Shown here piece after piece: positions 1,858 to 21,067 of a DNA stretch of 33,926 nt (its first letter is position 1; each line of letters starts with the position of its first letter). Position numbers and translations under genes: made by a program. Origin of the DNA: Spirochaetaceae bacterium (lineage in GTDB: Bacteria; Spirochaetota; Spirochaetia; Treponematales; Breznakiellaceae); contig JAISIL010000082.1 in assembly GCA_031262035.1 (NCBI GenBank), positions 1-33,926 on the forward strand, written 5' to 3'. Under the pieces are notes generated by a model. That model was given only the letters and a program-made list of their open reading frames with translations, did not search any database and had not been told where the DNA came from.

Positions 1858-4800
1858 TTAATCCACCCACAGCCCCGTATACAGCGGACTCCCGGCATTA
1901 TAGTCATAACTCATATCCATATCCTCCGTAATATGGTTATTCTTGTAATGACTACCATCTATATATATAGCCGCACCATCGCTTGACTGGTTCTTCTTCG
2001 GCGTCCCAGAAGCGTCATTTCCAGACTCACTGGAACCATAGATGACACCACCTGTCTTGCTGAACACAGCAGCAACACCAGACTCAATATATACACCACC
2101 CCCATATCCAGCTATGCTAGAACTTGAACCATAAACCGTTTTATTGCCTGATACAATAGCCATATCAGCCATATTGAATGTTCCACCTGCAAGATATATA
2201 GCACCACCACCGATATTTGACGACAATGAAGATGACCTATATACAGTATTTCCTGAAACAGCTGCATTGTCATTCATATTGAATGTGCCAGACTCAACAT
2301 ATACACCACCTCCATAGATAGAGTAGAGGGAGGATGCAATATTCCCAGAAACAACCGCATTATCATTCATGCTAAATGTGCCACTTGCAACATACACACC
2401 ACCTCCGTAGGAATAGGAGGAGGATAAGGCTGTATTCCCTGAAACAATCGCATTATCATTCATGCTGAATGTGCCAGATGCAACATATACCCCAGCTCCA
2501 TAGGAGTAAGAGGTGTAGTCGTCGTCGTCGGAGGAATCGGAGGAAGCCGTATTTCCTGAAACAACTGCGTTATCATTCATGGTGAGAGATCCTCCGTCAA
2601 CATAAATACCACCTCCATACGTCGTTGATCTCCCAATAATAATAATACCCCCAGAATAATTATTCTCAGAATAAATATTCCCAGCAATCTTTACAGAACC
2701 ATTCAATTCTAATTGTCCTGTTGCATTTACCTTCACTAAAGAGGCATTATTGCTCGATACCCCCTTAAGTAGCATTTTCCCATTCAAGATTACAGAAACT
2801 GAATTTCCACTAGCTACACCGATAGTAAGCAATGAACCAGTTCCGCTTAACTGAACAGTAGGCCAGTTAGCCTCAATGCTTCCTTCTCCCATACCGGTAA
2901 AGGTAATACTAACATTATTTGCATTATTCAAATTATCTAAATTTTTTGCAGTAACATTATCAGAATCAAAAAGTTTTATTAGATAGGTTGAATTACTTGT
3001 GGCGTTGTTCTTTATCCATGGCAATATATTGTTAAGGTTGGAAACCACACCTAAACCTAAATATGCTGGTGTAGTACTATCATTTACATAGAGGCGGGCA
3101 GTTATTGGGTCCGTCTGCGGGAAAATCACTGTCACATTACCGGAATTAGCGTTATTACTTACACTTGAACCTGTATAAGTAAAATAGTTAGCAGGTATTC
3201 CAACAAAAGTATATCCGTTTTTTACTGTAAACGACAGCATCGCACTATAGGTCTTACTTCCCCTAAAGAATGCCTTGCTCAAACTTCCGCCACCTTCTTT
3301 CCAACTTACAGTACCTGTATACTGTGTAGTATTGATAGGCGTTGTTACCGGTATCTCTCCAACCACAGGCGCCATTATGAGCCCATCTAAATCTGCTGAA
3401 ACTATCTTTGGAAATGTGATAGTTATTACATTACTTCCTGCATTATTGCTTACCGACATTGCATTGGTGTTGATAAAAGAATTGGCGGCAACAGTGTTAA
3501 ATGTATAGTTCTCAGTAGGTGTCAGCGTAACTATCGCTTTGTAGGTGGTATTGGCAATAAAGCTACCTGATACCATCAAATCATTCCCATCCAACCATGA
3601 GACATTTCCACTAAACTCACTGGAAATTTGTGATAAGGCACTTGAAGGTGATTGCCCGATTGCCGGTCGTGTTATAAAATTCGTCAAGTCAAATTGAGTA
3701 ATATTATTCTTGGTAGTAACCGGAAACACAATCATCACCGTTCCGCTATTGGCAGAGTTTGTTACTGAAGTTGCACCGGTATAACTAAAGGCATTAGCCG
3801 AAACTCCGGTAAAGGTGTAGCCGATATGTGGTGTTAATGTGAGCATGGCTTTATAAACAGTATTGGCTTCAAACGATGAATTATACCAATAGTTTTCATC
3901 ATTGCGAGACCAATTTACAAAGCCGGTATATTGCTCCGTAGAGATAGATGCTGTATTAGGGCTGGCTCCCTTTACCGGAGCAATTATCAAACTACTTAGG
4001 TCAAGTGTAGTAACAACTACCGGGTCTACAGTAGCAGGAAATACTATAGTGACTGTCCCACTATTGGCGGAATTACTTACAGATGTTGCGCCAGTATAGG
4101 TAAATGAATTTGCTTCCACCCCATTAAAGGTGTAGCCGGTAGCGGCGCTCAGTGTAACAACCGCCCGGTATATTGTCCCTGCATCAAAATAGGAAGAGAA
4201 AGATGAGCCACCGCTGGTTCTCCAACTTACCGAACCGGTATATTGTCCGGTTGATATTGAAATGTTACTGGCCAGCTCGCCCTTTACAGGTGGTGTTACC
4301 AAACTGGTTAAATCCAGAGCAGTTACTTTTATGGGTTCAAGGGAATTGAATATAATTGTTACAGTTCCCCTGTTTTCTTCATTACTTACCGACACCGCTT
4401 CGCTATGAGTAAAGGTATTGGTTCCTATTCCTTCAAAGGTGTATCCGGCTTTGGGGGATAGTTCAACAATGGCCTTGTATGAGATATAAAGTTGGAAAGC
4501 TGTGGTGGGTGAAAAAACTAGACCGTCCTGCCTGCTCCACATGATAGTGCTGGAATATTCTGTTGTATCAATAGTATTAACCAGTTGGCTCGGACTAAGA
4601 CCTGCTCTTGGCACAGGCACTAAATCTGTTAAATCAAGATTGGTAACCAGTTGTAGGTTCCGGGTAACACTTATCGTAGGATTACTCATAATTGTTCCCT
4701 CATAGCCCTCACGGCTTACCCGTACCTTTATTGTCTTTCCAATATCCCCTTCTACCGGGACATAGCTGCTGGCACCAGTACCGATTAGCGATGATTCACC

Positions 4801-5787
4801 TTGTATCCACTGGCAGGTAATGGTTCCAGTGCCGCTCAATTGACTTGTATCGGCAGTTAAAGTGCTTCCAACTATCGGATTCCCCGAAATGCTGACACTA
4901 CCGCTTAGAATTTTTGTGGCTGAAAGCACGACTGCAGTCGGACTACTTTCAATAGTTCCCTCATAGCCCTCACAGCTTACCCGAACCTTTATTGACTTCC
5001 CAATATCCCCTTCTACCGGGACATAGCTGCTGGTACCAGTACCGATTAGCGATGATTCACCTTGTATCCACTGGTAGGTAATGGTTCCAGTGCCGCTCAA
5101 TTGACTTGTATCAGCAGTTAAAGTGCTTCCAACTATAGGATTCCCCGAAATGATCACACTACCGCTTAGAATTTTTGTAGCTGCAAGAACGGCTGTAGTC
5201 GGACTACTTTCAACTGTTCCATCGTAGTCTACACGACTCACCTGCACCTTTATTGTCTTCCCTATATCTCCTTCTACCGGAACATAGGTGTTACCACCGG
5301 TGCCGACTGTCGTATCTTCGCCTTGCATCCACTGATAAGTAATAGTTCCAGTACCACTCAATTGACTTGTATCGGCAGTTAAAGTGCTTCCAACTATCGG
5401 ATTCCCCAAAATACTGACACTGCCGCTTAGAACTCTTGCAAGCACGACTGTAGTCGGACTACTTTCAACAGTTCCATCGTAGCCTACACGACTTACCTGC
5501 ACTTTTATTGTTTGCCCTATATCACCTTTTAACGGGACATAGGTGCTTCCGCCAGAGCCTACTTTCGTATCTTCCCCTTGAATCCACTGGTAGGCCAGTA
5601 ATCCTTCGCCTTCAAGTTCGGTTGTATCGGCAGTCAGAGTTTCGCCAACTTTTGGTGTGCCTGTAATAGTGACCTCTCCTGTAAGGGTTGCAATTTTAGG
5701 GGAAGGCATTTCACAACTAGCCGACATAATAGCTAAAACGAGAACTGTGCCGATAAAGAATCCTTTACTCTTAAATAAATCTGCCAT
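1858..5787 (-). CDS. Giant repeat lipoprotein: Ig-like repeats plus beta-helix region
   Basis: This gene encodes 1309 residues starting MADLFKSKGFFIG. The start at 5787 follows AGGAGG by seven bases; the longer frame to 5874 would run through the promoter. A hydrophobic signal ends at Cys25 (MSASC), a loose spirochaetal lipobox, so the protein is probably a surface lipoprotein. Four Ig-like repeats of about 83-87 residues follow (GNPIVGSTLTADTSQL...ITYQW type), then five repeats of about 100 residues (DLTSLVTPPVKG...YTFxGVxANxFTYTG). The C-terminal third is rich in GGGVYVxSGTFxMNDNAxVSGN units that should form a right-handed beta-helix, as in polymorphic adhesins. The XRE gene at 5919 is divergent, and promoter overlap suggests control by it. 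Ligand unknown; adhesion or host-surface binding is likely. Confidence 0.85.
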   Translation of the reverse strand: MADLFKSKGFFIGTVLVLAIMSASCEMPSPKIATLTGEVTITGTPKVGETLTADTTELEGEGLLAYQWIQGEDTKVGSGGSTYVPLKGDIGQTIKVQVSRVGYDGTVESSPTTVVLARVLSGSVSILGNPIVGSTLTADTSQLSGTGTITYQWMQGEDTTVGTGGNTYVPVEGDIGKTIKVQVSRVDYDGTVESSPTTAVLAATKILSGSVIISGNPIVGSTLTADTSQLSGTGTITYQWIQGESSLIGTGTSSYVPVEGDIGKSIKVRVSCEGYEGTIESSPTAVVLSATKILSGSVSISGNPIVGSTLTADTSQLSGTGTITCQWIQGESSLIGTGASSYVPVEGDIGKTIKVRVSREGYEGTIMSNPTISVTRNLQLVTNLDLTDLVPVPRAGLSPSQLVNTIDTTEYSSTIMWSRQDGLVFSPTTAFQLYISYKAIVELSPKAGYTFEGIGTNTFTHSEAVSVSNEENRGTVTIIFNSLEPIKVTALDLTSLVTPPVKGELASNISISTGQYTGSVSWRTSGGSSFSSYFDAGTIYRAVVTLSAATGYTFNGVEANSFTYTGATSVSNSANSGTVTIVFPATVDPVVVTTLDLSSLIIAPVKGASPNTASISTEQYTGFVNWSRNDENYWYNSSFEANTVYKAMLTLTPHIGYTFTGVSANAFSYTGATSVTNSANSGTVMIVFPVTTKNNITQFDLTNFITRPAIGQSPSSALSQISSEFSGNVSWLDGNDLMVSGSFIANTTYKAIVTLTPTENYTFNTVAANSFINTNAMSVSNNAGSNVITITFPKIVSADLDGLIMAPVVGEIPVTTPINTTQYTGTVSWKEGGGSLSKAFFRGSKTYSAMLSFTVKNGYTFVGIPANYFTYTGSSVSNNANSGNVTVIFPQTDPITARLYVNDSTTPAYLGLGVVSNLNNILPWIKNNATSNSTYLIKLFDSDNVTAKNLDNLNNANNVSITFTGMGEGSIEANWPTVQLSGTGSLLTIGVASGNSVSVILNGKMLLKGVSSNNASLVKVNATGQLELNGSVKIAGNIYSENNYSGGIIIIGRSTTYGGGIYVDGGSLTMNDNAVVSGNTASSDSSDDDDYTSYSYGAGVYVASGTFSMNDNAIVSGNTALSSSYSYGGGVYVASGTFSMNDNAVVSGNIASSLYSIYGGGVYVESGTFNMNDNAAVSGNTVYRSSSLSSNIGGGAIYLAGGTFNMADMAIVSGNKTVYGSSSSIAGYGGGVYIESGVAAVFSKTGGVIYGSSESGNDASGTPKKNQSSDGAAIYIDGSHYKNNHITEDMDMSYDYNAGSPLYTGLWVD
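4700..5460 (-). repeat. Intragenic tandem repeats with 261 bp period
   Basis: Inside the giant lipoprotein gene, the DNA coding for the second to fourth Ig-like repeats recurs at 261-base steps. For example, the same segment appears near 4831, 5092 and 5352. The copies around 4740-4960 and 5000-5220 are nearly identical at the DNA level, so recent duplication or gene conversion is likely and copy number may vary by recombination. Confidence 0.85.
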
Positions 5788-5844: not shown

Positions 5845-5874
5845 ATTATACCATACTCTTAGTAAAATTGTCAA
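5845..5874 (-). promoter_or_regulatory. Promoter of the giant lipoprotein gene with operator-like inverted repeat
   Basis: Read on the minus strand this is TTGACA, an 18-base spacer, then TATAAT. The spacer contains TACT-aag-AGTA centred on spacer positions 9-11 (plus-strand 5854-5864). The -35 box overlaps the opposing -35 box of the XRE gene. The XRE product is a plausible binder of the inverted repeat (inference). Confidence 0.75.
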
Positions 5875-5896
5875 CTATCCTTTTGTAAAATATAAT
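5868..5896 (+). promoter_or_regulatory. Promoter of the first XRE regulator gene
   Basis: TTGTCA at 5868-5873, a 17-base spacer and TATAAT at 5891-5896 precede the gene at 5919. The -35 box shares five bases with the opposing lipoprotein -35 box, so the two promoters are back to back. Confidence 0.7.
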
Positions 5897-5918: not shown

Positions 5919-6263
5919 ATGACAGATATAAAAGATGTTTTTGCATCTAATTTAAAAAAAATACGACATGCAAAAGGGCTCAATCAGGCAGAATTAGCGG
6001 GAAAAGCAGAAGTTTCCAAGAATTATATCGGTTTTCTCGAAACCGCCCGTAAGTTTCCCTCGTCCGAGATGGTTCAAAAGCTCGCTCAGGCCCTGGATAT
6101 TGACCCAACCGAACTTTTCGCCAAAGAAATTGATGTCCAAAAGGTGATACTGGCCACTCAAAAGGCCGTCTACAAAGAAATCGGCACCCTGATTGACAGG
6201 ACGGTGTCGGAGATTATCAACACAAAGGTGGCGGAATTGGAAGAATTGGAGCCGGTTGCTTGA
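5919..6263 (+). CDS. XRE-family helix-turn-helix regulator
   Basis: The 114-residue protein has an XRE (Cro/C1-type) DNA-binding domain at about 5-65, with the helix-turn-helix around QAELAGKAEVSKNYIGFLE. A short helical tail of about 45 residues follows (QKAVYKEIGTLIDRTVSEII) and could mediate oligomerisation. It is a paralogue of the regulator at 15735-16079; both have a KFPSxEM motif after the recognition helix. It is divergent from the giant lipoprotein and probably represses that gene and itself (inference from promoter overlap). Its stop codon overlaps the -35 box of the next gene's promoter. A 32-base piece of its coding end (6187-6218) recurs at 6965-6996. Confidence 0.88.
   Translation: MTDIKDVFASNLKKIRHAKGLNQAELAGKAEVSKNYIGFLETARKFPSSEMVQKLAQALDIDPTELFAKEIDVQKVILATQKAVYKEIGTLIDRTVSEIINTKVAELEELEPVA
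6187..6218 (+). repeat. 32 bp direct repeat, left copy (inside the XRE gene)
   Basis: This segment, coding for the LIDRTVSEII part of the XRE protein, is identical to 6965-6996. The two copies are 778 bases apart and bracket the AbrB/PIN TA module. Confidence 0.85.
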
Positions 6264-14045: not shown

Positions 14046-15731
14046 ATGAACAAGCACAAAATGCTCCCTATCGGGATAGAAAATTTTGAAGAAATGGTTA
14101 CCAAAAACTTTTGGTATGCCGACAAGACTCTCATGATTAAGGACCTGCTCGATGGTGATGTTAAAGTCCAGCTCATCACCCGGCCCCGGCGTTTCGGGAA
14201 AACCCTTAATATGAGTATGTTGCAGCATTTTTTCGACTGCACCATGGACAGCCGGGCGCTTTTCAAAGACCTCGCAATCGGCAAAGCTGGCGATGAATAC
14301 CTGGCGCACATGAATCAGTATCCGGTGATTTTTCTGACATTCAAGAGGGCAAAAAAATTAACTTTTGAAGAAGCAATCGAGGTTTTGCTGGATGAATTGG
14401 GTAGGGAGTTCAGAAGACATCAATATCTTGCAAATTCCGATAAAGTTGACAGCTATTTTCGTAAAGTGATGGCTTCCTATTTCAGCCCGACGGCTAAAAA
14501 ATTAAAACCTGAAGCATCGCTCCATCTTCTGTGCGAAGCCCTTCACAAGCACTGGGGAAAGAAAGCCATCATTTTGCTCGATGAATACGATGTGCCCCTT
14601 GAAAGTTCATACTCCGCTAATGAACCGTATTATAACAAGATGATTAGTTTTTTCAGAAGAATGATGGGCGACGCGCTCAAAGGGAATTCTTCTCTTGAGT
14701 TTGGAGTTGTCACAGGCTGCCTGCGCATCAGCAAAGAAAGCATCTTTACCGGTCTTAATAATCTTGAAGTGAACACCATACTTGACAATGGTTTTTCCAG
14801 GTATTTTGGCATAACCGAAGACGAAATGGCAGAGGCTATAGAAGAATTTGGGCTTGAGCAATACCGTGAAGGCATTCAAAAATGGTATAACGGTTATATA
14901 TTTGGCCAGACCAATGTCTATAATCCATGGAGTGTTATCAATTATATTAAGAGTTCAGTTTATGATAATCAGCCGGACTTTGTTTCTTTCTGGGCAAACA
15001 CCAGCGGAAACGATATTGTAAAAAAACTTTGGGTCCAAGCAGGGAATATTGAAAGGGACCAGATTGAAACACTGTTACAAGGCGGAGTAATAACAAAGAA
15101 AATTCACACCGAAGTTACTTTTCAGGAACTATACAATACGGTGGAAAACATTTGGAACCTCCTCTTTTTTACCGGCTACCTGAAAAAAGCCGATACGGCT
15201 CCGGTTCAAGCAGATGGAATAACACATCTTATTATTCCCAATGAAGAAGTGAAGTATATTTACCTCAATACCATTACATCATGGTTTGACAATAACTTAA
15301 AGGAAAGCAAGCACAGCGCTTTTATAAAGGCTTTACTGGAAAGTGATACCAAAATGATGGCTATTGAAATAAACAGGGTTCTTTTAAAAACTATTAGTTT
15401 TATGGACAAGGCTGAAAACTTTTACCATGGCTTCCTTACCGGTCTGCTCGCCTCAATGGGCGATGACTACTCTGTTAAATCCAATAGGGAAACAGGCAAT
15501 GGCAGGAGCGACATTATGGTCTATAGCACCCTGGACAAGAGTTTTGCGGCAATTCTGGAACTAAAAACCGCCCCCGACCTGCTGCATCTCAGTGCCGCCT
15601 GTGATGCAGCCCTGACCCAGATAAGTGAAAAAAACTATGCAGCAGAACTACACAACCTTCTCTTTACCGATATACACAAATTCGGCATTGCCTTTTGCGG
15701 CAAAGAATGCGCCGTAAAGATGGCTGAGTAA
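14046..15731 (+). CDS. AAA-ATPase-like / PD-(D/E)XK nuclease family protein (DUF1703 type)
   Basis: The 561-residue protein starts MNKHKMLPIGIENFEEM. The N-terminal part is the AAA-ATPase-like domain: FWYADKTLMI and the modified Walker A ITRPRRFGKTLNMSML at about 44-59, with LLDEYDVPL as the Walker B region. The C-terminus has a PDDEXK_9-type nuclease core with GRSDIMV (Asp489) and AILELKTA (Glu505, Lys507). Such proteins are often expanded in anaerobes of the gut and in Treponema. Their function is not established; a role in mobile-element biology or defence is often suggested. All core motifs look intact. It is convergent with the XRE gene, three bases from its stop. Confidence 0.9.
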   Translation: MNKHKMLPIGIENFEEMVTKNFWYADKTLMIKDLLDGDVKVQLITRPRRFGKTLNMSMLQHFFDCTMDSRALFKDLAIGKAGDEYLAHMNQYPVIFLTFKRAKKLTFEEAIEVLLDELGREFRRHQYLANSDKVDSYFRKVMASYFSPTAKKLKPEASLHLLCEALHKHWGKKAIILLDEYDVPLESSYSANEPYYNKMISFFRRMMGDALKGNSSLEFGVVTGCLRISKESIFTGLNNLEVNTILDNGFSRYFGITEDEMAEAIEEFGLEQYREGIQKWYNGYIFGQTNVYNPWSVINYIKSSVYDNQPDFVSFWANTSGNDIVKKLWVQAGNIERDQIETLLQGGVITKKIHTEVTFQELYNTVENIWNLLFFTGYLKKADTAPVQADGITHLIIPNEEVKYIYLNTITSWFDNNLKESKHSAFIKALLESDTKMMAIEINRVLLKTISFMDKAENFYHGFLTGLLASMGDDYSVKSNRETGNGRSDIMVYSTLDKSFAAILELKTAPDLLHLSAACDAALTQISEKNYAAELHNLLFTDIHKFGIAFCGKECAVKMAE

Positions 15732-15734
15732 GAG

Positions 15735-16079
15735 CTAGATAGAGGCCTGATACTCGTCCAGGACTTTTTGGATGGTTGATTCGAGGGCTTTTGTGGTGGA
15801 TTCTGTTATGGCAGGCTTTAAGTCGCCGAGAATCTTCTTTTGCATTATTTGGATAGAACGGGTGAGGGATGGCGCTTGGGAAAAAAGTTCACTTACATCA
15901 ATTCCAAGGGCTTCTGCAATCCTGTCAAGCATCTCCGGGCTGGGAAACTTAAGGCAAAGCTCAATCATAGCAAGAAAATTAGTAGACATTCCTACCTTTC
16001 GAGCTAAAGAAGCCTGAGATAAGTTCATCTCATGCCTCCTGTCCTTTATATTATTGGCAAGGAGTTCCCTTACATTCAT
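15735..16079 (-). CDS. XRE-family helix-turn-helix regulator (second copy)
   Basis: This protein of about 114 residues has an N-terminal HTH at about 5-65, with LSQASLARKVGMSTNFLAMIE as the HTH region and LKFPSPEM after it, plus a helical tail. It is a paralogue of the regulator at 5919-6263. Two adjacent ATGs exist (16082 and 16079). I choose 16079 because it lies six bases after TATAAT, the spacing seen at other genes here. No ribosome binding site is visible. It is divergent from the tandem lipoprotein genes and likely controls them and itself. Confidence 0.87.
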   Translation of the reverse strand: MNVRELLANNIKDRRHEMNLSQASLARKVGMSTNFLAMIELCLKFPSPEMLDRIAEALGIDVSELFSQAPSLTRSIQIMQKKILGDLKPAITESTTKALESTIQKVLDEYQASI

Positions 16080-16085
16080 CATTGT

Positions 16086-16115
16086 ATTATATTTTTTTCA
16101 TAAGGCACTTGACAA
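16086..16115 (-). promoter_or_regulatory. Promoter of the second XRE gene
   Basis: On the minus strand: TTGTCA, an 18-base spacer and TATAAT, then three bases to the first ATG and six to the second. The -35 box overlaps that of the opposing lipoprotein promoter. Confidence 0.7.
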
Positions 16116-16137
16116 TTTATCTGTTAGATATTATAAT
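16109..16137 (+). promoter_or_regulatory. Consensus promoter of the lipoprotein pair with operator-like inverted repeat
   Basis: TTGACA at 16109-16114, a 17-base spacer and TATAAT at 16132-16137: a perfect consensus. The spacer contains TATCT-gtt-AGATA (16118-16130), centred on spacer positions 9-11, the same place as the inverted repeat at the first XRE/lipoprotein locus. The CTnnnAG core is shared. A 7-base-pair hairpin (16154-16160 with 16171-16177) lies in the leader. Confidence 0.78.
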
Positions 16138-16218
16138 ATATTGTCATAATTTCCTTATTGATAATCTTAACAATAAGAAGAGTATCATTCGATAAAGTTC
16201 ATTAAATGGAGGAGTCTT

Positions 16219-17325
16219 ATGGAAAAGATTAGTTTTGTGCGCAAGATCGCCCTGTTTTGCGCTATTGTAGCGGCTTTTGCCTTTGTTGGCTGTGATTTAT
16301 TCAATCCAAAACAGACGAAGAACGATGAAGGCCCTGTTGATTGGATTAATTACAAGACATCGGGTAATTATTCACTCATCATCACCAACGAGACGAACTA
16401 TGATATTGTTGTCTTCAAGGACAGCATCAGTTTGTCCAGGCTGCTCGGCGGGGTTCCCAAGGGGGAATCGAACCACGGGCTTCCTGCCAATGCGACACTG
16501 TTTGGCAATCAAACCGGAGACTGTGCTCTGATAATCATCACCAAAGCACAGTTTGAAGACAATGAAGATGACCTTGGCAACACGGCGCTTTCTCAGTCTC
16601 CATTCACCAGGATTTATGCAGCCTACAATGCCTCAGGTGATAATAGCATCCCCTGGGTGGTAGATGGAAAACTCGGCGGCACAAACACGATGGTGCTGCA
16701 GAATATGACTGAATACAACATGGAGATTAGAAGGGACAGCCCCCGCGGACAGGCAGTTGCCTATGCGCCCTATCAATCTTTTAACACAAACATCTATCTT
16801 GCCGACGGAAACTATAATATTTTCCCGGTCTTCAAGAAATACAATCCTGTAAGCGATGTAATTATCACTATGTATCCGAAGCGGGATGACGGGACGCCCA
16901 AGCGGAACAGCTTTTCTTTTGAAGGGGGCAGCGAAACAGAGATTAATGCCAATGACTATCTAAGCGGCATAACCTTTACCTCAGGCTATGCCTATTTAAT
17001 GATTGTAAACAACAGCAACAATGGTGTGCAGGTGATGAAGGGCAACACTGTTCAGAAGACGGCGACAGGAATTGAAATAATTAATCCGACAAGCAACCGT
17101 ATGTTCCCTGTAGAAATGCCCAGTATTCAATTAGGTGAAGAACCGATATATGCAGAAACGATGAGCTTCAGCGGCTGGACAGTGGGAGAAGTGGGAAGCC
17201 CGATTAGCATTGCCACAACAGAGTTCAAGGTTGACTATATGTATACCGTTACAGTAAGCGGAGACGCCAATGTCGGGGCGCTTACGGTAAGCGCTCCTGT
17301 TGAAGGCAATAAAATTAGTTTTTAA
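16219..17325 (+). CDS. Lipoprotein, paralogue of the N-terminal domain of the next gene
   Basis: The 368-residue protein starts MEKISFVRKIALF after GGAGGA. A signal peptide ends at the lipobox FVGC (Cys25), so it is a membrane-anchored lipoprotein. The rest aligns along its length with residues 22-380 of the protein encoded at 17342: VDWINYKTSGNYSL, NHGLPANATLFG, YNMEIRRDSPRG and SGYAYLMIVNNS all recur. The fold is probably all-beta; I do not recognise a named family. The second gene starts 16 bases later with its own GGAGGA, so they form an operon that likely arose by tandem duplication. An envelope or surface role is inferred. Confidence 0.85.
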   Translation: MEKISFVRKIALFCAIVAAFAFVGCDLFNPKQTKNDEGPVDWINYKTSGNYSLIITNETNYDIVVFKDSISLSRLLGGVPKGESNHGLPANATLFGNQTGDCALIIITKAQFEDNEDDLGNTALSQSPFTRIYAAYNASGDNSIPWVVDGKLGGTNTMVLQNMTEYNMEIRRDSPRGQAVAYAPYQSFNTNIYLADGNYNIFPVFKKYNPVSDVIITMYPKRDDGTPKRNSFSFEGGSETEINANDYLSGITFTSGYAYLMIVNNSNNGVQVMKGNTVQKTATGIEIINPTSNRMFPVEMPSIQLGEEPIYAETMSFSGWTVGEVGSPISIATTEFKVDYMYTVTVSGDANVGALTVSAPVEGNKISF

Positions 17326-17341
17326 TGAGCGGAGGATTCCA

Positions 17342-20300
17342 ATGAAAAAGTTGCTGTTTGTATGTTTATCTCTTTGTATCTTTAGTTTATTGTCAGTGTC
17401 TTGTAATTTGATTGTCCCTGAAAAAAAATCTTCGGACAATGGTGCTGCCATTGATTGGACCGATTACACAGGAAGCGGCGCCTATTCAATACGGATTACA
17501 AATAAAACATCGGTAGACCTGGTGGTTTTTAAAAACAGCCTTAGTTCTGCCAATCTGATTGGCGGTGTGAAGGCTAATGTGGCGAATCACGGGCTACCTG
17601 CAAACAGCAGCCTTTTTGGTAGTTCTTCATCTGATTTTACTTTAGTGTTTCTATCAAACACTGAGTATGAACAGAACAAGAATAATCTTTCCAGCCTGGA
17701 GCAACATCCATTTACCCGCATCTATGCTATGTATAATGCATCGAGCGATAACTCTGTGCCCTTTATTGTAGACAGCAGTCTTGGCGGAAACAATTCACTG
17801 GTGCTGAGCAATGATACCAATTATAATATGGAAATATGCCGTGACAGCCCCCGCGGCCCTGCAATAGGCTATGCGGCGGCAGGTTCATCAAACGTAACGA
17901 TAAACCTTGCAAACGGCGACTATGTATTTTTTCCTGTGTTCAAAACCTACGATGCAGGCCGGGATATTGTGCGGACGGTGTATCCGAAGCGTCCCGATTC
18001 CACTCCTGCCCGCAGAGGCGCTTCTTTTGAAGGGGGCACCAGATTAAGCATGAATGCAGAAGATTTTACAGCGAACGCCAATTTCAGTTCGGGCTATGCC
18101 TATCTGGTAATCAGGAACGAGAGTGCAGACGGTGTTCAATTGATGCACAATACTGTCGTGCAGACAACGGCAAGCGGAATGCGCTTTGTCAATCCTAATA
18201 ACACAAAAACATTTCTTATAGAAATGCCTGTAAGCGGCACAGGCAGTAATACTACCTATGCGGCAAAAACACTATTCTCCGACTGGACACTGGGGGAACT
18301 GGGTTCGCCTCAGGCAATTCCGCTAAACGAAGCGCTCTTTGACGATACGGTTACGGGCGGAGAGGCTGCGACAGTATTCCAGAGCGACCATACCTACACG
18401 ATTACTGTTACCGGTAATGCCAACACTACAGGGCTGGTGATTGGCATGCCTACCGAGCGGCTTTCAAAGCCGCTGGGATTAAGTGCAGTAACAGCAGGCG
18501 ACAGCAGTGTGCAGCTTTCATGGAGTGCAAGCACCGATGCAAACTACTATGAAGTACACATGACAAACGAAGATGCCAATGCAGAATATACCTACAAAAC
18601 CAACACGACAGCCCTTGCTTATACGGTGAACGATCTGGAAGGCGGCACGGTGTATTGGTTTAAGGTCCGCGGCGTGTATGGTTCACCCGGTAATTCGGAT
18701 AATGAATATTCAAATTTTTCTGACTTTGCAAGTGCACAAACCAATTGCAGCGCTCCTACGGAAGTGGAAGCAAGCGGAAAAAGTGATAATTCGGTTGAAA
18801 TTTCATGGAATGCATCAAAATCGGCTGTAAAATATACTGTTTACCAGGCTCTGAGCGCCTCGGGCGATTACACAAAGATTGATGAAACTGAAGATACCAG
18901 TTATATTCATACCGGCCTTGCCTACAACGATACTTACTATTATAAGATTAGTGCAACAGGGGATGACGGCATTGAAAGCGGGAAATCCCTTTATGCTTCG
19001 GCAAGCCCTTCTGTAATATCGGTTACGGGCATTAGCGGCCTGCCTTCCGGCATGACAATAGGCACGGCATTAAGTTTAAACGGCACGGTAGAACCTGAAA
19101 ACGCTACCAACAAAACAATTGTATGGAGCATAAAGACCGCAGGCGGCACCGGTACGGTGCTAAACGGCAGCAGCCTTAGTGCAAGTTCACAGGGCACGGT
19201 AACACTTCTTGCCACGATAACAGACGGCAGCGGCCTTGGTTCGAACTTCGTAAAAGAATTTACGGTAACAGCAACACCACAGTTTCATGCGGTAACTAAC
19301 ATCACCGGTGTGCCGGCAAGCGGCACAACCGGCAGCACGGTTACTTTAAGCGGAACGGTAGAACCGGCTGATGCAACAAACAAAACAATAGCATGGTCAA
19401 TAACAAGTGCAGGCACAACAAATGCAGAAATTACACAGACAAACAGATTAAATGCAAGAGCAGAAGGAACAGTCACCGTCCGTGCAACAATAACCAACGG
19501 CCTTGCAGCAGGCACAGATTACACAAAGGACTTTACCATAAGCATCACCCTGCCACCCCTTACCGGCACAGTAGCGATAAACGGCAATGCAATTGTAGGC
19601 CAGACCCTTACGGCAAACACAACGGCATTGGGTGGCAGCGGGGTTATCACCTACCAGTGGTTGCGGAATGGGACTACAGTGATTGGAACAAATACCAATA
19701 GCTATACGCTTGTAGATGCGGATATTGGTTCTACTATAGTAGTCCGTGTAACAAGGGATGGGTATGCAGGGATGGTGGAGAGCGCGGCGACTGCCACTGT
19801 TCAACTACCAGCATTAACCGGCAGTGTATCTATTATTGGCAATCCAATCGTGGGACAGACACTGACGGCAGATGTTTCCAGCCTTGGAGGAACAGGTACA
19901 ATCAGTTATCAGTGGTTACGAGGCGGTAGTAGTATATATACAGAAATAACAGGCGCTACGAACAGCACCTACACATTGATTGCTGATGATGAAGGCAAGA
20001 CGATAAAGGTGCGGGTTTCCAGGGCTGGATATGCAGGTGCGGTGGAGAGTGCCGGAATAGAAATCATAGCTCCACCCGTTGTGGTTGCAATATCTGTCGG
20101 ATATCAACATAGTTTGTTGTTGAAATCAGACGGCAGTGTTTGGGCTACCGGGGAAAATTCTTACGGTGCGTTAGGTAAGGCAAGTTCCACAATATGGATA
20201 AAGGTAGTTGATTCAGATGTGATTTCAATATCTGCAGGCAACCAAAGAAGTTTTATCATAAAAAAAGATGGAAGTCTTTGGGCTACAGGCCGGCACCCTC

Positions 20301-21067
20301 TAGGAAATGGCTCTGGGCATTCTAGCTTTACGAAAATTATTGATCATGGTGTAAAAGATGTATCTACTAGTAAAGAATCACACAAAACTATTATCTTAAA
20401 AGACGATGGCAGTGTTTGGGGAATTGGTACATGGAGTGCTACTTATACAGGAAAATTTGATATGTTAGACAGCACTACATTTAAGAAAGTATTTAACTCA
20501 GGTGCAATACATATTTCAAATGGTTCTGGATATGATATTTTTATCATAAAAGAAGATAAAAGTCTCTGGGCTGCCGGCCTTAATAGCAGCGGATCCCTTG
20601 GTACTGGCGATGAAGTAGTTAGAAATAGTTTTGTGAAGGTAATTAACAATGGTGTTCGATATGTAACAAACGCCTTGAGTAAAACCTATGTTATAAAAGA
20701 AGATGGTAGTTTGTTGTATGCTGGACATGCACCTGATGGAAGTAGCATAGTGAATTTTACACCTAGTCCAGTAATGCATGTAACGGATGTCACATTCTAT
20801 ACTAGCATCTTTTATTTAAAAGACGATGGCAGTGTATGGGCAAAAGGTGATAATAATCTTGGCCAACTAGGAGTAGGTGACAACTTAAACAGAAATGATT
20901 TAGTAAAAGTACTCGACAAAAATATTAGTACTATAACCACATATAACCATTCCAGTTTTGCACTAACAGCAGATGGATCACTGCTTGCTACAGGCAACAA
21001 TGATTGCGGTCAACTTGGAACAGGTGATACTGTGAACTTAAATACATGGACACAGGTTATGCCATGA
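17342..21067 (+). CDS. Large multidomain lipoprotein ending in RCC1-like repeats
   Basis: This gene encodes 1241 residues starting MKKLLFVCLSLCIF, after GGAGGA. A signal peptide leads to Cys21 (LSVSC). Rough order: a paralogue domain of the preceding lipoprotein (22-380); two fibronectin type III domains (about 382-562, with VQLSWSASTDANYYEV and VEISWNASKSAVKYTV); two BIG2/Ig-like domains (about 563-735, VTGISGLPSG); two Ig-like repeats of the GNxIVGQTLTA...ITYQW type (about 736-905), as in the giant lipoprotein; then seven RCC1-like units (about 910-1241, SDGSVWATGENSYGALG). Seven units would close one beta-propeller. Probably a surface adhesin or binding protein. A small zinc-ribbon gene follows. 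Confidence 0.87.
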   Translation: MKKLLFVCLSLCIFSLLSVSCNLIVPEKKSSDNGAAIDWTDYTGSGAYSIRITNKTSVDLVVFKNSLSSANLIGGVKANVANHGLPANSSLFGSSSSDFTLVFLSNTEYEQNKNNLSSLEQHPFTRIYAMYNASSDNSVPFIVDSSLGGNNSLVLSNDTNYNMEICRDSPRGPAIGYAAAGSSNVTINLANGDYVFFPVFKTYDAGRDIVRTVYPKRPDSTPARRGASFEGGTRLSMNAEDFTANANFSSGYAYLVIRNESADGVQLMHNTVVQTTASGMRFVNPNNTKTFLIEMPVSGTGSNTTYAAKTLFSDWTLGELGSPQAIPLNEALFDDTVTGGEAATVFQSDHTYTITVTGNANTTGLVIGMPTERLSKPLGLSAVTAGDSSVQLSWSASTDANYYEVHMTNEDANAEYTYKTNTTALAYTVNDLEGGTVYWFKVRGVYGSPGNSDNEYSNFSDFASAQTNCSAPTEVEASGKSDNSVEISWNASKSAVKYTVYQALSASGDYTKIDETEDTSYIHTGLAYNDTYYYKISATGDDGIESGKSLYASASPSVISVTGISGLPSGMTIGTALSLNGTVEPENATNKTIVWSIKTAGGTGTVLNGSSLSASSQGTVTLLATITDGSGLGSNFVKEFTVTATPQFHAVTNITGVPASGTTGSTVTLSGTVEPADATNKTIAWSITSAGTTNAEITQTNRLNARAEGTVTVRATITNGLAAGTDYTKDFTISITLPPLTGTVAINGNAIVGQTLTANTTALGGSGVITYQWLRNGTTVIGTNTNSYTLVDADIGSTIVVRVTRDGYAGMVESAATATVQLPALTGSVSIIGNPIVGQTLTADVSSLGGTGTISYQWLRGGSSIYTEITGATNSTYTLIADDEGKTIKVRVSRAGYAGAVESAGIEIIAPPVVVAISVGYQHSLLLKSDGSVWATGENSYGALGKASSTIWIKVVDSDVISISAGNQRSFIIKKDGSLWATGRHPLGNGSGHSSFTKIIDHGVKDVSTSKESHKTIILKDDGSVWGIGTWSATYTGKFDMLDSTTFKKVFNSGAIHISNGSGYDIFIIKEDKSLWAAGLNSSGSLGTGDEVVRNSFVKVINNGVRYVTNALSKTYVIKEDGSLLYAGHAPDGSSIVNFTPSPVMHVTDVTFYTSIFYLKDDGSVWAKGDNNLGQLGVGDNLNRNDLVKVLDKNISTITTYNHSSFALTADGSLLATGNNDCGQLGTGDTVNLNTWTQVMP

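Follow-up and report, generated by a model that had tools for sequence, protein, structure and literature searches.

In the lambda CI/OR system, an operator lies inside the spacer of the strong PR promoter, at about -42 from the start of the regulator's own PRM transcript, and the repeated operators are placed about two helical turns apart. The controller (C) proteins of restriction-modification systems are small XRE dimers that use paired operators and control their own level, and repressors of the RstR, HipB and DicA type are short HTH_3 proteins encoded divergently from their target, with private operators. In plasmid pLS20, the XRE-family regulator RcoLS20 acts on overlapping divergent promoters of unequal strength, Pc and Pr, repressing the strong one and tuning its own; the two promoters are believed to have coincident -10 and -35 boxes, looping brings in a second operator located more than 85 bp away, and the system governs conjugation, with a signalling peptide as its inducer (PMC4207663).

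Here we consider a small XRE regulator that is divergent from a lipoprotein gene, with the intervening promoters at 16086-16137 of a 33,926-nucleotide stretch (the window), one contig of the 3.07-Mb genome, in 215 contigs, of a Spirochaetaceae bacterium. We think it likely that this locus, like others of its family, is a self-contained transcription switch for one surface-lipoprotein or secreted-protein unit, repressed by its XRE through a private operator.

Two divergent loci in the window

The locus has the following features (window positions):

15735..16082, minus strand: XRE regulator of 115 aa with an N-terminal HTH_3 domain and a C-terminal helical tail (Pfam HTH_3 4.2e-10, plus the family profile)
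16086..16115, minus strand: predicted XRE promoter TTGTCA-18-TATAAT (TTGTCA 16115-16110, spacer 18 bp, TATAAT 16091-16086), consensus score 11/12
16109..16137, plus strand: predicted lipoprotein promoter TTGACA-17-TATAAT (TTGACA 16109-16114, spacer 17 bp, TATAAT 16132-16137), consensus score 12/12
16118..16130, no strand: putative operator O1, TATCTgttAGATA, within the 17-bp spacer (family-wide dyad and core tests)
16219..17325, plus strand: partner lipoprotein of 368 aa with a signal peptide and lipobox FVGC
17342..21067, plus strand: second lipoprotein, in the same transcription unit as the 16219..17325 gene, with fn3, Big_2, GNPIVGQTLTA Ig-like repeats and RCC1 repeats after the N-terminus

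Both promoters, and TATCTgttAGATA in the spacer, are present exactly as the initial annotation had claimed. TATCTgttAGATA is the sole copy with GTT in the whole genome, and TATCTnnnAGATA occurs at 8 places genome-wide compared with 2 for the reversed pattern. The predicted XRE start coincides with the ATG or is only a few bases away from it, which would leave the message almost or entirely leaderless. The Pfam HTH_3 gathering score of 23 is exceeded by both regulators in the window (39.9 and 46.8 bits); the Pfam matches of the 115-aa XRE are to HTH families only, with no C-terminal self-cleaving oligomerisation domain. The partner lipoprotein at 16219..17325 matched no Pfam or NCBIfam family, and its N-terminal region is 48% identical to that of the tandem lipoprotein downstream (region 16219-18457). 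Structure prediction contributed little: the XRE model (pLDDT 75) had no structural match at E 0.001 or better, the lipoprotein model reached a pLDDT of 47, and our conclusions rest elsewhere.

Two further features of this region are recorded here. An inverted repeat, CTTATTG-N10-CAATAAG, lies at 16154-16177, within what would be the 5' leader of the lipoprotein transcript, and a gene with AAA-ATPase_like and PDDEXK_9 domains (14046-15731) is convergent with the 15735 XRE gene and ends 3 bp from the end of that gene.

A locus at 5845-5896 has the mirror arrangement:

1858..5787, minus strand: partner lipoprotein of 1309 aa from ATG, with lipobox SASC and GNPIVGSTLTA repeats
5845..5874, minus strand: predicted lipoprotein promoter TTGACA-18-TATAAT (TTGACA 5874-5869, TATAAT 5850-5845), 12/12
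5854..5864, no strand: putative operator TACTcttAGTA, in the spacer
5868..5896, plus strand: predicted XRE promoter TTGTCA-17-TATAAT (TTGTCA 5868-5873, TATAAT 5891-5896)
5919..6263, plus strand: XRE regulator of 114 aa

The initial annotation had taken the two regulators for paralogues and the two loci for copies of a duplicated module whose resemblance was not due to chance. Both proteins do belong to the same small-XRE family, and the module recurs far beyond these two loci, but the regulators are not sister paralogues: they are 31% identical, and a phylogenetic tree joins the 5919 XRE to the C60b XRE in a supported clade (100/96) of relatives, with the 15735 XRE outside. That tree rules out a tandem or recent duplication linking the two loci; their partner genes are also unlike and their spacers are not close. 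Because the two operators differ, cross-regulation between the two XREs appears unlikely. Repeats of the GNPIVGxTLTA type, previously reported on both sides, are present at both loci, but at the 16086-16137 locus they lie in the second gene (17342-21067) and not in the promoter-proximal one (16219-17325). Elsewhere in the genome, a truncated near-copy of the C60b XRE (C60:66611-66799; L055, second XRE) lies about 1 kb downstream of C60b, beside another lipoprotein gene.

The regulator family and its partners

A sequence search found 20 further relatives of the window XRE in its own genome, and a 12-sequence profile, applied to the genome stretches that were fetched, gave 24 members of the small-XRE family. 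The initial annotation had proposed beforehand a genome-wide check in which members unlinked to lipoproteins would count against the module. The divergent partner is a lipoprotein gene for 14 of the 24 members and a signal-peptide (secreted) gene for three; the remaining seven have neither, and the outcome thus speaks in part against it. The partners are otherwise dissimilar, being of NHL, fn3, InlB-type, Ig-like or transglutaminase-like kinds, or having no known domain.

The promoters that face these partners are strong by consensus. A score of at least 11/12 was reached by 20 of the 24 members, as against 17 of 187 genes in a 20-contig control sample of the same genome (226,574 bases; p 2e-14), and a score of 12/12 by 12/24 against 4/187 (p 3e-10; p 1e-4 against divergent control genes only). 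At several of these loci the promoter lies 75-105 bp from the XRE start, and a shared -35 element is therefore not applicable there.

Some of the partnerless members are close to NusG-like genes (L061:1730-2320, minus strand; also L054 and L052), possibly specialised antiterminators, and others are not; among these neighbours the C40 gene matches PF02357, and the C27 and C100 genes were judged by sequence only. A distant XRE on contig C81 (L077) is divergent from an ORF that by eye resembles a SigI-type sigma factor.

Of the 200 genomes searched from the taxonomic family, 170 contained profile matches, with a maximum of 23 places per genome; the figures were 105/149 for the order (outside the taxonomic family often as single, weaker matches) and 26/198 for the phylum. 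None of the 59 relatives searched shares the genus of the source genome. The named relatives found in a search with a single family member are mostly Treponema or other spirochaete genomes, the majority of them MAGs, and the regulator-bearing relatives appear to be bacteria of termite or cockroach guts, as judged partly from isolate names.

Linkage to exported proteins holds across these genomes. Among 176 loci with enough upstream DNA, the partner was called a lipoprotein in 74 and a signal-peptide protein in 33, and the partner-facing promoter scored at least 10/12 in 113. When the divergent lipoprotein or signal-peptide ORF had also to possess a ribosome site and to lie no more than 450 bp away, 105 of 170 family loci qualified (76 lipoprotein and 29 signal-peptide), compared with 11 of 171 control genes (1 and 10; p ~1e-29). 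Signal peptides were called by a simple custom rule, identical for family loci and controls.

Overlapping promoters and the spacer dyad

For the tests of promoter geometry we used 42 non-redundant loci, chosen so that XRE identity stayed below 70% and the shared -35 was 20-60 bp away from the start of the XRE. The sequence TTGACA followed by A automatically gives TTGTCA on the opposite strand, and that A also occurs in 15 of 23 control promoters, so the shared -35 described in the initial annotation must rest on the XRE-side -10. Such an element (at least a 5/6 match, 16-18 bp from TTGTCA) is present in 21 of the 42 loci; among 168 shifted positions it turns up 16 times (p 3e-8). The XRE-side -10 is thus a genuine feature.

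Taken singly, neither of the window's spacer dyads departs significantly from chance (p 0.066 and 0.22 on spacer shuffling), and we rejected the reading of either as significant by itself. The view that two loci of this geometry argue against chance draws its strength instead from family-wide tests, which stand far above controls. Across the 42 loci, bases at mirrored positions of the spacer covary around a mid-spacer centre (z 2.9-3.1), most strongly at positions 3 and 4 bases from it, and the mid-spacer dyad is the strongest of about 230 centres in the 137-bp region scanned (z 4.67), with ATCAATGTTACATTGAT and CATTGCTGTTATGGCAAT as examples; because related sequences share ancestry, such z-values are guides and not exact probabilities. 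The 21 spacers of the source genome do not by themselves yield a significant dyad (z 0.5-1.2), and the family signal comes mainly from relatives. A core of the form C-n5-G is carried by 20 of the 42 spacers; shuffling predicts 1.6, and the 23 control promoters of the source genome have none (p 3e-5). The narrower CTnnnAG core, noted earlier in both window spacers, is likewise a genuine family feature (7/42 loci against 0.23 expected).

O1 is placed 8 bp upstream of the XRE -35, which corresponds to a position of about -42 to -43 relative to the start of the XRE transcript. When the likeness of O1 to sequence within its own locus was compared with its likeness to sequence in other loci, a second copy (O2) emerged as a single sharp peak centred 21 bp from O1, at the expected lipoprotein start (z 4.56). 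At both window loci O2 is weak, with 5-6 of 12 positions. A third site near the XRE start, at +33 to +35, is also weak (z 2-3).

Operators resemble one another only modestly more when their regulators do, and helix 3 is not the best predictor of that resemblance, so covariation does not prove direct recognition. We also considered the residues of helix 3 as a specificity code, for which the operator-regulator comparison gave weak support. A G032 dyad, ACTATCTATTAGATAG, was first read as an orthologous operator and was dropped, as it lies 237 bp from that XRE start. At this locus (L104), the sequence 237 bp upstream of the XRE is TTGACT-16-TATAAT, directed toward an epimerase-like gene, with a spacer filled by CTATCTATTAGATAG, the same dyad as the window's.

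A candidate switch and the systems it resembles

The linkage, both promoters, the mid-spacer dyad with its core and the 21-bp second copy are read directly from the sequences, and from them we infer that the XRE binds the dyads, represses its partner, controls itself and answers some signal. In this scenario, the lipoprotein promoter, near-consensus and of sigma-70 type, would be active by default. The divergent -35 elements overlap, so only one of the two promoters would be usable at once and RNA polymerase would have to choose between them. An XRE dimer would bind the O1 dyad in the spacer of the lipoprotein promoter and, at many loci, also O2 on the lipoprotein start 21 bp away, the two sites sandwiching the -10 box. 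Occupancy of O1, together with O2 where it is present, would shut the lipoprotein promoter, and repression of the partner by its XRE is probable on this evidence. Given that O1 is 8 bp upstream of the XRE -35, the same bound dimer would leave the XRE promoter free and may activate it, either directly or by relieving competition; such autoactivation is a tentative guess from the geometry. The level of the regulator may in turn be limited by the weaker third site close to the start of the XRE. As every regulator seemingly has its own operator, each lipoprotein would be controlled privately.

The XRE may instead only repress both genes, in simple negative autoregulation with private operators but with no self-activation and no bistability. 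We regard this as a serious possibility, if a somewhat doubtful one. The XRE -35 (TTGTCA) and many of the -10 elements are good enough to work unaided, and the possible third site over the XRE start would suit negative feedback. Against repression of both genes stands O1 itself, which does not block the XRE promoter and occupies a position, relative to the XRE -35, that is typical of activators touching sigma.

A regulon, in which one or a few XREs cross-regulate many lipoprotein promoters and so give mutually exclusive expression, is unlikely. The half-site core is common to the whole family and two pairs of spacers in the source genome are 75% alike, but mean similarity among its own spacers is only slightly above that of shuffled ones (0.41 vs 0.365) and most pairs differ; every locus retains its own regulator, and the second site resembles the first within a locus and not between loci. 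Least likely of all is that the XREs are antitoxin-like, prophage-derived or housekeeping regulators merely beside lipoprotein genes, the strong promoters and dyads being incidental: the best named families are HipB-, RstR- and DicA-like (all far below cut-off), many phage repressor families match the XRE and the genome contains about 20 further HTH_3 genes at other positions, but in many genera the lipoprotein linkage, the consensus promoters, the dyad and the second operator greatly exceed what controls show, and the surroundings of the two window loci revealed neither a toxin gene nor a phage neighbourhood.

Recombination or phase-variable tracts are the usual explanation for surface variation in spirochaetes, and a lineage-wide set of switches, with one repressor per lipoprotein and an operator for each, would, if true, add a route to surface diversity. 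At its furthest, termite-gut Treponema could carry an array of lambda-like bistable switches, some twenty at most, independent of one another and each private to one surface lipoprotein, and genetically identical cells would then differ in the mix of surface proteins that they display, with no DNA rearrangement; we hold this to be speculative and rather improbable, and likewise consider bistability and private surface switching possible, with a low probability. The module offers a direct test of bistability in a -35-sharing divergent promoter with a spacer operator. The family would also, if the proposed switch is correct, form a natural library of more than 100 repressor-operator pairs in one geometry, informing how small XREs change specificity.

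Among the described systems, the RstR/HipB/DicA-type repressors have in common with the window XREs a short HTH_3 protein, a divergent (here presumed) target and, putatively, private operators, but differ in their setting, given that no phage or toxin genes were seen beside the window loci. The window XREs score 35.2 and 39.0 on the RstR family (NF041951), against a curated cut-off of 80, and 33-34 on the HipB-type antitoxin family (TIGR03070), against 71.65, and the neighbours of our family are mostly lipoproteins. A PDB search gave SinR, C.BclI (PDB 2b5a) and a phage immunity repressor as relatives with solved structure. Like the C proteins, the XRE is small and would act as a dimer on paired operators and control its own level, and it has C.BclI as a sequence relative; unlike theirs, its presumed target is a divergent lipoprotein, and no restriction or methylase gene was seen beside the window loci.

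With RcoLS20 the locus shares, at the sequence level, an XRE-family regulator and overlapping divergent promoters of unequal strength (12/12 vs 11/12 in the window), but here the overlap is confined to the -35 elements, 21 bp separate the putative operators, and many copies of the module stand next to lipoproteins. The likeness to lambda CI/OR is at the level of the family, with a spacer operator at about -42 of the regulator promoter and a second site two turns away, the latter weak in the two window loci. It differs from lambda CI in having no C-terminal cleavage domain (115 aa), in its overlapping -35 elements and in its predicted targets, which are host genes instead of phage genes. Literature searches, incomplete in coverage, found no published description of a one-regulator-per-lipoprotein switch system, in agreement with the initial annotation, which knew of none. 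What appears to be new, and was not found in the literature searched, is a lineage-wide, many-copy design with one regulator per lipoprotein and an operator in the shared consensus promoter; its single pieces have what we regard as precedents in lambda OR, RcoLS20 and the C proteins.
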